A stretch of 64,000 nt of DNA from Armatimonadota bacterium. Lineage in GTDB: Bacteria > Armatimonadota > Fimbriimonadia > Fimbriimonadales > Fimbriimonadaceae. The position numbers and the translations under genes are program-made. Below, piece by piece: positions 9,333 to 58,693 of the stretch. Under the pieces are notes generated by a model. The model did no database searches and was not told the origin of the DNA. It saw only the letters and a program-made list of their open reading frames with translations. The stretch is from the NCBI GenBank assembly GCA_025360125.1, contig JANYCU010000045.1, positions 124,001 through 188,000 on the forward strand. Direction: 5' to 3'. Numbering within the stretch: position 1 is the stretch's first letter; every line of letters begins with the position of its first letter.

Positions 9333-10154
9333 ATGCGAACCCGAGATATTGTAACCGTTGGTGCTTTTGGCCTTTCCGCCCTTGGTGGCGCCATGCTTGT
9401 TTACGGAGCTTTGGTCGAATCCAAGCGACTCGTCCTTGACAAAGTTGACGTTCCTCTGCCGGGTTTGCCTGAGCACCTGGACGGATTCAAAATCGCGGTC
9501 CTCGGCGACTTTCATTTGTGCGATAAGCACTCGGTTGAGCTCGCGAACAAAGCGATCGACATGGCATTGGACCAGGACCCGGACATGGTTTGTTTGGTCG
9601 GTGACTTTGTGAATTATTGGAAGCCGACTTCGCCATGGATGATCGGCGAGGTTCTCGAGCCGCTGCTCATTATGAATGGAAGTGTTGTGGCGATTCCCGG
9701 CAATCACGACTACAAAACTGGGTCGCCGGAGATTCTTCGCATCATTCTCGATGAACTTAATATAAAGCTTCTTCGAAACGAAAGCTGGGTTCATAATGGC
9801 ATTTGCTGGACGGGGATCGATAGCTATAACGAAGGCGCGGCGGACGTTAACAAGGCGTTTTCGTCGGCCACGTCGGACCCGATCATTGCGCTATGGCACG
9901 AGCCGGATTTGGTCGATATGTTGCCTGCTGGTCGGGCTTTGCTTCAGCTCAGCGGACATTCTCACGGTGGACAGTTTAAGTTTCCGTTTGGATTGACACC
10001 TATGACATCGACGAACGGTGATCGCTATCGAGATGGGCTCTATCCGGACGCTTCGACTCCGATATTTGTGACGAGGGGAGTCGGGACGACGGGCCCACCT
10101 TCGCGGTTCCTGTGTCCGCCGCAGGTCGCAGTTTTGACGTTGACAAGTAATTAG
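9333..10154 (+). CDS. Membrane-anchored metallophosphoesterase
   Basis: 273 residues with one N-terminal hydrophobic segment (about 8-26) and a calcineurin-like phosphoesterase domain. Metal-ligand motifs appear in order: LGDFHLCD (about 57), VGDFVNYW (about 89), GNHDY (about 127) and SGHSHGGQ (about 207). This is the YkuE/YaeI-like subgroup of bacterial membrane phosphoesterases; some act on lipid A-type or nucleotide substrates. The ATG directly follows the TAA of the MetH/MetF gene, so translation is probably coupled. A functional link to one-carbon metabolism is not evident. Confidence 0.88.
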   Translation: MRTRDIVTVGAFGLSALGGAMLVYGALVESKRLVLDKVDVPLPGLPEHLDGFKIAVLGDFHLCDKHSVELANKAIDMALDQDPDMVCLVGDFVNYWKPTSPWMIGEVLEPLLIMNGSVVAIPGNHDYKTGSPEILRIILDELNIKLLRNESWVHNGICWTGIDSYNEGAADVNKAFSSATSDPIIALWHEPDLVDMLPAGRALLQLSGHSHGGQFKFPFGLTPMTSTNGDRYRDGLYPDASTPIFVTRGVGTTGPPSRFLCPPQVAVLTLTSN

Positions 10155-10161
10155 TTTTAGT

Positions 10162-10267
10162 GTGGCACGGATACGCGTCGGGAGCTTGCGACCAAAGCTT
10201 ATCCGTGTTTCGAATGAGTTAACACTGATAAACTGCGCTCGAAACTCGCTACGTGTATCAGCGCCAC
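10162..10267. repeat. Two-hairpin palindromic repeat, copy 1
   Basis: The ends are GTGGCAC and GCGCCAC (inverted). The left half folds as CACGGATA (10166-10173) with TATCCGTG (10200-10207). The right half folds as CACTGATA (10223-10230) with TATCAGCG (10256-10263). The two ~47-nt units are in opposite orientation, like a BIME. It lies between the convergent phosphoesterase and acpS genes. A second copy is at 57977-58091. Confidence 0.75.
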
Positions 10268-10274
10268 TTCTGGC

Positions 10275-10634
10275 TTATGCCATCGGAATTTGCAACACGC
10301 TTCGCTCGACCACAGCGACGGCAGCAGCGTGGGTTTTTTCGTGGGTAATCGAGACAAAGATTTTGAGGCGTTTGCCATCAAAATTGGGGTCCAAGATCGT
10401 GACATGAGGCTGGCCGAGTTGGTCATTCCAGATGTCGATGTTCTTCATCAACATGGTCACGCCAACCGCTTTGATGACGGCTTCTTTGGCCGCCCATCGG
10501 CCAGCAACCTTCATCGGCGTCGTACAGTAGGCTTCTTCGCGCTCGGTAAGGATTCGCCGGGTGAATCGGTCTCGCTTCAGGGCCTTTTTGATTCGTCCCA
10601 CCTCAACAATATCGATTCCGATGCCGACGACCAT
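10275..10634 (-). CDS. acpS: Holo-[acyl-carrier-protein] synthase
   Basis: 119 residues from the ATG at 10634; an in-frame ATG six codons upstream is less likely, because CATAAT ends 6 nt before 10634. AcpS transfers 4'-phosphopantetheine from CoA to the serine of acyl carrier protein. The N-terminal GIGIDIVEVGRI and central GRWAAKEAVIKA motifs hold the magnesium-binding Asp and Glu. HVTILDPNFDGKRLKIFVSI and the ITHEKTHAAAVA C-terminus match the family. Length is standard for the trimeric AcpS type. Confidence 0.95.
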   Translation of the reverse strand: MVVGIGIDIVEVGRIKKALKRDRFTRRILTEREEAYCTTPMKVAGRWAAKEAVIKAVGVTMLMKNIDIWNDQLGQPHVTILDPNFDGKRLKIFVSITHEKTHAAAVAVVERSVLQIPMA

Positions 10635-10674
10635 GCAGAGATTATGCCTCATTACAAAAGGCGGTTGGGCGAAG

Positions 10675-23107: not shown

Positions 23108-23183
23108 GCGCCCGTAGCTCAGTGGATAGAGCAATTGCCTTCTAAGCAATTGGTCGCTGGTTCGAGTCCAGTCGGGCGTGCCA
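23108..23183 (+). tRNA. tRNA-Arg, anticodon UCU
   Basis: A 76-nt cloverleaf with CCA encoded. The acceptor stem is GCGCCCG with CGGGCGT, the D-arm is GCTC/GAGC, and the anticodon stem is ATTGC/GCAAT enclosing the loop CTTCTAA with anticodon TCT. The T-arm is GCTGG-TTCGAGT-CCAGT. Position 1 is a G-U wobble. It reads AGA. A GGTAAACT -10-like element lies 10 nt upstream (23092-23097), similar to those at gatB and several protein genes. Confidence 0.95.
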
Positions 23184-40933: not shown

Positions 40934-41515
40934 TTACCTCAGTGGATCGTGGGCACTACTCCAAACGAAATTCTCCGCGTTTTCTACTAACTTTGCTTTC
41001 ACTGGATTCTCTTGGATGTAGGCCCTCGTCCGAAGAAAGTGGTCCTCGTTACGCATGAAGCGATCAAAGTAGCCTTGTTGCCAGATAGATTCCATTTCAG
41101 GGTGTAGTTTTTTTAGTCGATGTGCTGTGAATGACTTAAGCGACTGAATCGCGACCGGAAGGCCTTGACCTTCGTCAAATCTGGCCAAAAAATGAACATG
41201 ATTCGGCATAACGACCCAGGCAAGAAGCGCAAAGAATTTCTCATCGTGATACAAAAGCGAGTCTTGAACGATAGCCGCGCACGACGTTTCGCGTAAAATG
41301 CACGATCCAACGCCTAGATCAAGATACTTTTCGATGCGACGAATCCGCTCGATCTCAATATTTCCTTTTAAATCGGTCAGCTCCACCTCAAATCGCTCTA
41401 AAACCTCCTTGGGGAGGCTATCTGAAAGTCGAAACGTTACAAATTGTGTGGCACCTGCTCCGTCAAAGTGCGGGACGCTTTGTTGACGCTGGTACCATCC
41501 TTTATTCTCACCCAC
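40934..41515 (-). CDS. REP-associated tyrosine transposase (RAYT, IS200/Y1 family)
   Basis: 193 residues. The N-terminus (VPHFDGAGATQFVTFRLSDS) is typical of RAYT proteins. MPNHVHFLARF (about residue 104) holds the HUH metal-binding pair, and YFDRFMRNEDHFLRTRAYIQ followed by NPVKAKLVENAENFVWSSA contains the region of the nucleophilic tyrosine. RAYTs bind and cleave REP hairpins; here REP-like units flank the gene on both sides. The start is a GTG at 41515 within a CCACG/CGTGG palindrome. It appears intact and is likely the source of the nearby REPs. Confidence 0.9.
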   Translation of the reverse strand: MGENKGWYQRQQSVPHFDGAGATQFVTFRLSDSLPKEVLERFEVELTDLKGNIEIERIRRIEKYLDLGVGSCILRETSCAAIVQDSLLYHDEKFFALLAWVVMPNHVHFLARFDEGQGLPVAIQSLKSFTAHRLKKLHPEMESIWQQGYFDRFMRNEDHFLRTRAYIQENPVKAKLVENAENFVWSSAHDPLR

Positions 41516-57144: not shown

Positions 57145-57957
57145 TTAGGGCTTTCCCGGAACAATCAACGACTGAAGAATAAGAAGCGACAAAGGAGCAG
57201 TCGCCATCAAACTATCCAGGCGGTCAAGCAGTCCGCCGTGGCCCGGCAAAATATTCCCGCTATCCTTCACGTCAGCCTTCCGTTTCAGCCAGCTTTCGAA
57301 GAGGTCGCCGGCTTGGCCAAGGATTCCGCAATTGAGTCCAAGAAGCAGCATCAGGAGCATCGGATAATGGAAGATTGCCCCTAGAGCAAGCGCCGCCCCG
57401 ACGCACGCAACCAAATTCCCAATCGACCCTTCCCACGTTTTGTTGGGCGAAATCGACGGAGCGAGTTTATGCTTGCCAAACGCTTTGCCGACGAAGATCG
57501 CCGCGGTGTCGCCGCACCAAATGGGGATCGCGGCAGTCATCAGCAAGGGCCAAGTTGAGGGTGATTTGGTTGTGGCCAGCAAAGCGAGGGGGATAACCGT
57601 TGCAAAAGTCCATAAAATTGAACTGATGCTTGCCAAAGTGTTTTTCCTTGCAAACAGCCAAATCATGATCAGGGCCGAAACAGTTGCGAGAAGGAGGTAA
57701 ATGAAGTACGGCAAGTTTATGCCTTTTGCTATTACATTCACAGTTGCAACAGCCGTAATGGTTGCGGCAGCAATCGCCGAAGATAGTCTGCCTGGGTCAC
57801 CGGAAGCATTCTTTTCAGCGAGACGATCAAATTCGAATGCACAAACTCCCGCAATGGCCACAATCAGCAGCTTGACCGCCCAGCCGGTCGGATCAAAAAA
57901 AAGAGCCCCGACAACGACGGCCAAAAGCACAATCGCGGTTAGAACTCGTTCTTTCAC
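57145..57957 (-). CDS. cdsA: Phosphatidate cytidylyltransferase
   Basis: 270 residues with about eight hydrophobic helices. The C-terminal CDP-alcohol signature is intact: CGDTAAIFVGKAFGKHKLAP followed by SISPNKTWEGSIGNL (about 148-185), then GDLFESWLKRKADVKDSGNI and PGHGGLLDRLDSLM. It makes CDP-diacylglycerol from phosphatidate and CTP in phospholipid synthesis. The GTG start is fixed by TAAACT ending 6 nt upstream. The two-hairpin repeat copy 2 begins 7 bp beyond that element. Confidence 0.95.
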   Translation of the reverse strand: MKERVLTAIVLLAVVVGALFFDPTGWAVKLLIVAIAGVCAFEFDRLAEKNASGDPGRLSSAIAAATITAVATVNVIAKGINLPYFIYLLLATVSALIMIWLFARKNTLASISSILWTFATVIPLALLATTKSPSTWPLLMTAAIPIWCGDTAAIFVGKAFGKHKLAPSISPNKTWEGSIGNLVACVGAALALGAIFHYPMLLMLLLGLNCGILGQAGDLFESWLKRKADVKDSGNILPGHGGLLDRLDSLMATAPLSLLILQSLIVPGKP

Positions 57958-57976: not shown

Positions 57977-58091
57977 GTGGCACTGATACGCGCAAGGAGG
58001 AACAACTGTAGCTTATCAGTGTGAAACAACACGGATAAACTCGGCTAAGGCAAACCAGAATTAGGAGGCGCTACTCGTGTATCCGTGCCAC
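57977..58091. repeat. Two-hairpin palindromic repeat, copy 2
   Basis: The ends are GTGGCAC and GTGCCAC. The left hairpin pairs CACTGATA (57981-57988) with TATCAGTG (58014-58021); the right pairs CACGGATA (58030-58037) with TATCCGTG (58080-58087). Relative to copy 1 the CGGAT and CTGAT types have swapped places, and both halves of each stem change together. Confidence 0.78.
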
Positions 58092-58102
58092 CAGGACAAG
58101 CC

Positions 58103-58693
58103 CTAGTCGGTCGGAAACTCGACCTCGGCGTTAATCAGCTTCAAAGCAACCTGCGTTCGGTTTTCGCACTTCAGCTTTCGCATGATCACGCTGACCAAAT
58201 TCTTCACGCTCTGCTCTCGCAGATCGGACACTTCCGAAATGGTTCGATTCGACATTCCTTTGGCCACAAATTCCGCGACTTCATATTCGCGGTGGGTCAG
58301 GGCATTGCCCTTGCCATACGAGCGTTTTCCTTCCCGACTGACCGAGGAGGCAGGAACCAACGATGAGAGCGCCGAAACGGATTCGTACAAATCGTTCGCT
58401 GAAGACGAGCGAGAAATGGTGGCGTCAACCGATGATTCGTTGTTCTTTTCGCCGATCATCGCGAGAAAGAAGTCGCCAACCGCGCGGGCTCCAAGCAGAA
58501 ACTGAACCTCATCGACGTCAAGTTGCTCACCATCAACAATCAACAACTGTGCGCTATTCTTTTTAGCGCTGGAAATCAATTCCTTTGCCGTTGTTTCACG
58601 GGCAACCACTTGAATTGACCCCTTTCGATCTAAAAGACCAGATAAAGCATCAAGGAAAAGACGCTCCTTAGAAAACACCGCAATTCTCATCAT
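58103..58693 (-). CDS. NarL/LuxR-type response regulator with degenerate receiver
   Basis: 196 residues. The N-terminal 110 resemble a receiver domain (RIAVFSKERLFLDALSGLLD, LLIVDGEQLDVDEVQFLLGA), but the acidic pair normally at the start is absent, so it may be a pseudo-receiver. The C-terminal LuxR helix-turn-helix is typical: LTHREYEVAEFVAKGMSNRT, SEVSDLREQSVKNLVSVIMR. No histidine kinase is adjacent. An inverted repeat lies just upstream of the start (58701-58724). Confidence 0.85.
   Translation of the reverse strand: MMRIAVFSKERLFLDALSGLLDRKGSIQVVARETTAKELISSAKKNSAQLLIVDGEQLDVDEVQFLLGARAVGDFFLAMIGEKNNESSVDATISRSSSANDLYESVSALSSLVPASSVSREGKRSYGKGNALTHREYEVAEFVAKGMSNRTISEVSDLREQSVKNLVSVIMRKLKCENRTQVALKLINAEVEFPTD

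Follow-up and report, generated by a model that had tools for sequence, protein, structure and literature searches.

Two intergenic sites in the window, by which we mean the whole 64,000-nucleotide stretch of Armatimonadota DNA analysed here, carry copies of the same small palindromic element. A sequence-only reading had described it as two inverted hairpins of about 47 nt each, in which both arms change together so that the fold is kept, and had called it a second family that might be BIME-like or MITE-like. The question that the locus raises is what kind of element this is, how it came to its sites and which enzyme, if any, moves it.

Architecture of the two copies

Both window copies are head-to-head pairs of REP-like hairpins (Table 1). 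Each unit opens with a 5'-GTGG head and continues as an imperfect stem, CACNGATA-C-RC / GY-T-TATCNGTG, in which CAC-N-GATA precedes a C.T mismatch and then RC pairing with GY. Position N is G-C in one unit and T-A in the other, in both window copies, and a second covarying stem pair, R-Y, is G-C or A-T, with both arms altered together. Copy 1 reads GTGGCACGGATACGCG...AGCTTATCCGTGTT and then the inverted unit ...CAGCGCCAC. The inverted two-hairpin element with paired arm changes is thus confirmed at both sites (10162-10267 and 57977-58091). The proposed unit length of about 47 nt fits three of the window units but not the fourth (58028-58091), which is 64 nt long, and the conserved C.T mismatch in the stem corrects the fold as it had been drawn.

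Table 1. Copies of the element in the window, their REP units and the neighbouring genes
Feature	Position	Strand	Remarks
Copy 1, whole doublet	10162-10267		GTGGCAC starts at 10162, GCGCCAC ends at 10267
Copy 1 REP unit 1	10162..10209	+	Core GGATA/TATCC; GTGG head at 10162; R1 63.3 bits, E 1.2e-15; R1 training member
Copy 1 REP unit 2	10221..10267	-	Core TGATA/TATCA; GTGG head at 10267 (- strand); R1 62.4 bits; R1 training member
Copy 1 left neighbour, calcineurin-like metallophosphoesterase	9333..10154	+	ORF; PF00149 E 3.4e-12; stop 7 nt before element
Copy 1 right neighbour, AcpS-like phosphopantetheinyl transferase	10275..10652	-	ORF; PF01648 E 6.7e-14; convergent
Copy 2, whole doublet	57977-58091
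Copy 2 REP unit 1 (short type)	57977..58023	+	Core TGATA/TATCA; R1 60 bits; R1 training member
Copy 2 REP unit 2 (long type, 64 nt)	58028..58091	-	Core GGATA/TATCC; R1 54.5 bits; R1 training member
Copy 2 left neighbour, CdsA-like cytidylyltransferase	57145..57957	-	ORF; PF01148 E 4.5e-57
Copy 2 right neighbour, LuxR-type regulator	58103..58693	-	ORF; PF00196 E 1.8e-12

Folded as single strands, the whole copies preferred one long hairpin running from end to end, mismatched at the variable position, to a pair of separate ones. When the four units were folded alone, the best fold of one of them (10221-10267, minus strand) was not the expected stem, and the z-scores of three of the four were only -1.15 to -1.41. 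Since the folding energies of single copies give weak support, the case for the element rests on covariation.

Copy number and covariation in the host and a congener

From ten units of the host, a 4.13-Mb draft genome that is 98.56% complete, we built a covariance model, R1. At E<=1 the model gives 16 matches in the host genome, at 10 loci, so that the genome-wide search suggested by the sequence-only reading did find further copies. Because R1 gives 62 matches in a congener that contributed no unit to the model (CAMFIS01, a named MAG, 'uncultured Fimbriimonas sp.', G009 in our set), and because at E<=0.01 it finds nothing in 36 of 41 genomes (5 of 41, the host included, have a match), the family is more than chance. 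A kinship label puts the host in Fimbriimonas as well. At E<=1e-4, three of the 20 genomes of the genus have a match, and in one of these, G002, the match is a related but different REP, GTGGCACGGATAGGTG. With about 10 loci in the host and 62 matches in CAMFIS01, the family lacks the high copy number that is a usual, though not defining, REP trait: REPs usually exceed 100 copies per genome, and low counts are tabulated for S. Typhi (both as given in PMC2817692).

In the ten host units all 100 of 100 stem cells pair, and the covariation score was reached in 0 of 500 shuffles. The tally of stem cores used a larger set of 86 units (12 from the host and 74 from CAMFIS01), drawn from 96 model matches after leaving out L104 (two matches, a duplicate of L136), L084 (two, one perfect palindrome), the reverse readings at L077 and L082, the weak L087, and L127 and L129 (three, other REP families). 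Six main five-base cores occur in this set, TGGTA, TGATA, GGATA, TGGCA, GGACA and GGGCA, and the opposite arm nearly always carries the exact complement. The CAC/GTG foot, in contrast to this core, hardly varies, and 82 of 85 units retain the C.T mismatch (pair counts omit one unit with an indel). The GTGG head, counted by eye, stands in 74 of 80 listed units and GTAG in one, which places the family among REPs with a GT(A/G)G head. In 62 of the 86 units a G is found at position -3 before the GTGG head, perhaps as target or cleavage context.

The independent count of covariation comes from 71 distinct CAMFIS01 units, in which 95.5% of cells are Watson-Crick, compared with 81.4% after whole arms have been reassigned among units; none of 2000 such reassignments was as high as the observed share. 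In 64 of the 71 units the two arms of the 5-bp core are exact complements, compared with a mean of 24.6 after reassignment. The model-fitted alignment, which leans towards its own structure, has 98.4% of 902 cells paired and 103 cells in which both sides have changed, where shuffles give 32.9 (0 of 500 reach the observed value). The joint change of both arms, with the fold kept, therefore holds in the host and also in a related genome, as it should for the conserved imperfect palindrome of a REP.

Intergenic siting and insertion

The host copies are extragenic, as REPs and REPINs are. Eight of nine host loci have no overlap with an ORF, and the ninth overlaps only a longest-ORF prediction whose start is the REP's own GTG; by comparison, 5.4% of random 115-nt placements touch at most 30 coding nt. 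Most host copies lie between a few and about 20 bases from the end of a neighbouring gene. Convergent gene pairs enclose four of the nine host loci, and divergent pairs enclose none.

The unit that is dispersed is the inverted doublet. In the 27 composites examined (five from the host, three of them clean and two truncated or degenerate, and 22 from CAMFIS01), the repeating composite consists of two units head to head, with GTGG outward, and spans 104-161 nt. A typical composite joins one short unit of about 47 nt to one long unit of 63-68 nt with an unlike core; overall, units range from 44 to 89 nt and have conserved loops. This is the BIME/REPIN arrangement, which bears out the BIME half of the earlier suggestion. 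None of the 27 composites is flanked by an exact target duplication of at least 4 nt. In the host, G000 C56:73937-73983 (L012) is a single perfect hairpin of two outer arms, apparently a doublet whose inner arms were lost.

The site of copy 2 is informative about insertion. The luxR-cdsA gene order is kept in seven of eight congeners, and the REP element is absent from this site in all seven. In the host the gap between the two genes is 148 nt, 115 of which are the element, while the seven relatives have gaps of 12, 12, 17, 30, 50, 111 and 231 nt; because the flanks have diverged, the boundary is not base-precise. At the site of copy 1, all 20 genomes of the genus have AcpS, but the metallophosphoesterase on the other side occurs in none except the window's own, so that no empty site can be read there.

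A RAYT clade shared by the host and the congener

Y1_Tnp matches number 22 in the host genome and 26 in CAMFIS01. Thirteen of the encoded proteins, six from the host and seven from CAMFIS01, form one clade of RAYTs, and 12 of the 13 genes carry a GTGG hairpin that points outward on one flank or both (seven on both), a configuration found in 2.85% of random stretches per side. Each RAYT gene of the clade has its own REP version. Four proteins of the clade were compared with the NCBIfam REP-associated tyrosine transposase model; all four match and two score above the curated cut-off. In seven aligned RAYTs the HxH motif and the Y are invariant.

One CAMFIS01 member, L126, has R1 matches on both flanks, with the core TGGTA and not the GGATA and TGATA of the window; a related genome thus holds a RAYT with this REP, in a core variant, on either flank. 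L126 scores 71.4 bits against the NCBIfam model, below the cut-off of 80, and a sequence search gave no solved structure for it. Directly downstream of it, L143:470-1082 (G009 C49) carries seven REP units in a direct tandem array with a period of about 90 nt. Its nearest host relative, L063, is 55% identical and has another REP.

The window's own genome has no RAYT flanked by this REP: in the R1 scan none of the six host clade members, and none of the 22 Y1 genes set against the 16 R1 matches, has an R1-type REP nearby. We do not take this as excluding a RAYT origin, because a Pseudomonas survey reports that REPs frequently lack a cognate RAYT in the same genome, naming RAYT loss among the causes (PMC3686654). 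As a candidate for the cognate enzyme we considered L056, a Y1 gene on C6 that lies about 200 nt downstream from a truncated copy, and rejected it, since it is a member of a different group and has other palindromes at its borders.

Nature and fate of the element

The element is very probably a REPIN (a minimal BIME), that is, a non-autonomous ssDNA element moved by an HUH/tyrosine RAYT without target duplication. Each REP unit would fold in a single-stranded region, the RAYT (TnpA-REP) would bind the GTGG head together with the hairpin and cut outside the REP pair, and the doublet would be rejoined elsewhere in intergenic DNA, leaving no duplicated target. That a RAYT cuts the element as ssDNA and transposes it is what we infer. 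Inverted ends and a size near 115 nt would suit a MITE of a classical (DDE) transposase, with GTGGCAC...GTGCCAC as terminal inverted repeats and target-site duplications on either side. The sequence-only reading had pointed to such duplications as a check, and on their absence from the 27 composites we rejected the classical, target-duplicating sense of MITE-like; since, in addition, each half self-folds with its own covarying stem and the gene that the same REP flanks in CAMFIS01 encodes a Y1/HUH transposase, a DDE origin is extremely unlikely. A structured RNA signal (a terminator, an mRNA stabiliser or a small RNA) under transcript selection, its spread being secondary, could account for the maintained stems and for the four of nine host loci between convergent genes, and we regard it as very improbable. 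Neither window copy has a terminator-like site, which disposes of a terminator; no Rfam match was obtained for the element, and a known RNA family was discarded because only a tRNA at 23108-23180 reached the Rfam gathering score in the window. On the GTGG strand, G.T cells outnumber A.C cells by 18 to 8 over ten stem pairs, but ten of the 18 fall at one pair in related units, so that there is no clear RNA-type wobble excess. The element is, moreover, missing from the orthologous luxR-cdsA site. An integron attC site, the core motif of which is GTTRRRY, was ruled out by eye.

Compatible with a REPIN is the further reading that the host copies are what a past invasion left behind, now immobile, without a present role and served by no active enzyme, and on balance we lean towards it. 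Because no host RAYT lies next to the present REP, the host copies look like an orphan, decaying population. Several of them are truncated or rearranged, and mean identity among short units is 73.8% in the host, compared with 84.5% in CAMFIS01, in a comparison of units picked by length in which a small host sample of five is set against 26. The RAYT lineage that matches the REP would have been lost from the host genome or never resident in it, leaving copies to decay. Against this reading stand the draft state of the genome (98.56% complete) and the possibility that related RAYTs might act in trans.

Relation to known REP systems

Among the closest parallels are the REPINs of Pseudomonas fluorescens SBW25, which are described as inverted REP pairs forming hairpin doublets, extragenic and RAYT-linked (PMC3116915). 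The family described here shares with them the inverted REP doublet, the extragenic dispersal and the link to a RAYT, and tandem REPIN clusters are also reported from SBW25 (PMC3116915). It differs in its phylum, its low host copy number, the lack of a host RAYT with this REP, and its units of 44-89 nt with conserved loops. As in the y and z REPs of E. coli BIMEs, two unlike REP types make up one element, each with a 5' tetranucleotide head and a conserved stem mismatch (PMC8266576), and the E. coli mismatch is reported there to matter for TnpA-REP. Unlike the E. coli REPs, however, ours have GTGG in place of GTAG, a single C.T mismatch in place of AA-GC, and a core that drifts by compensatory change. 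The GTGG head is a known variant among the GTAG super-family (PMC3733652) and the GT(A/G)G REPs of pseudomonads and others (PMC3686654, PMC2817692), where RAYTs are likewise flanked by inverted REPs. In the available sections of these three papers the REP sequence GTGGCACNGRYAC is not described and Armatimonadota are not named, and our literature search found no paper on RAYTs in Armatimonadetes or on REP elements in Fimbriimonas. The REPIN/BIME family is real and, within the literature searched, new both in its sequence and in the phylum that carries it; its kind is known.

With this finding Armatimonadota, a bacterial group on which little work exists, gain a REP/REPIN family that has a likely RAYT partner. 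The covariants that occur naturally inside a single genome separate the frozen parts of the REP (head, foot and mismatch) from the free ones, a distinction that bears on how RAYTs read their substrate.

A similar REP in a Deltaproteobacteria MAG

Scanning one genome per species for the pattern gave 83 stretches, with 80 loci listed: 26 in CAMFIS01, 36 in the Deltaproteobacteria MAG fen_1099 (PMZC01; L173 and 35 further loci) and 18 strays. Seventeen of the strays were inspected by eye, and in none does Watson-Crick pairing alone close the hairpin; L223 closes it with two G.T pairs. The hairpin closes in all 24 inspected matches from the 36 fen_1099 loci. Units of fen_1099 have the head, foot and mismatch of the Fimbriimonas REP, with the core TGGCA, are near-identical to it and stand partly head to head. 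R1 gives 25 matches in fen_1099, and none of 30 relatives carries the REP; nor does this REP lie near any of the MAG's three Y1 genes. Its presence there reflects either transfer between phyla or convergence on a shared recognition class, which cannot be told apart here.

A tentative reading, to which we give a minor share of our confidence, is that one RAYT lineage mobilises REPs with drifting cores by reading the head, foot and mismatch, and that this recognition class also occurs in the Deltaproteobacteria MAG. With a core that drift has taken through six or more complementary forms, recognition would on such a reading depend on head (GTGG), foot (CAC/GTG) and C.T mismatch, and not on the core letters. 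If it is true, the class shared with the Deltaproteobacteria MAG would represent phylum-to-phylum transfer of a system whose inheritance is otherwise mostly vertical.

Other RAYT-associated repeats

In the segment 40826-41570 the window holds another Y1 transposase (about 41006-41245), flanked left and right by inverted repeats of its own, GGGTCTGGGCGTCCTCGCCCGG. The REP described here is distinct from these palindromes, so that the description of it as a second family was correct. Elsewhere, L065 (C48) and L066 (C22) are nearly identical RAYT genes with their REPs in one genome, which suggests that the RAYT unit has itself been copied.

A repeat family of roughly 330 bp in the host combines REP ends with a remnant of a RAYT N-terminus (G000 C25:17432-17761, L034:533-862 and others). 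Members of this family look like internally deleted RAYT elements; a host RAYT with REP-ended derivatives of this sort would be useful for asking whether RAYTs still move. Twelve matches cover at least 300 of the 330 bases at 72-100% identity, and the RAYT L063 aligns to two parts of the family around a 354-nt stretch.
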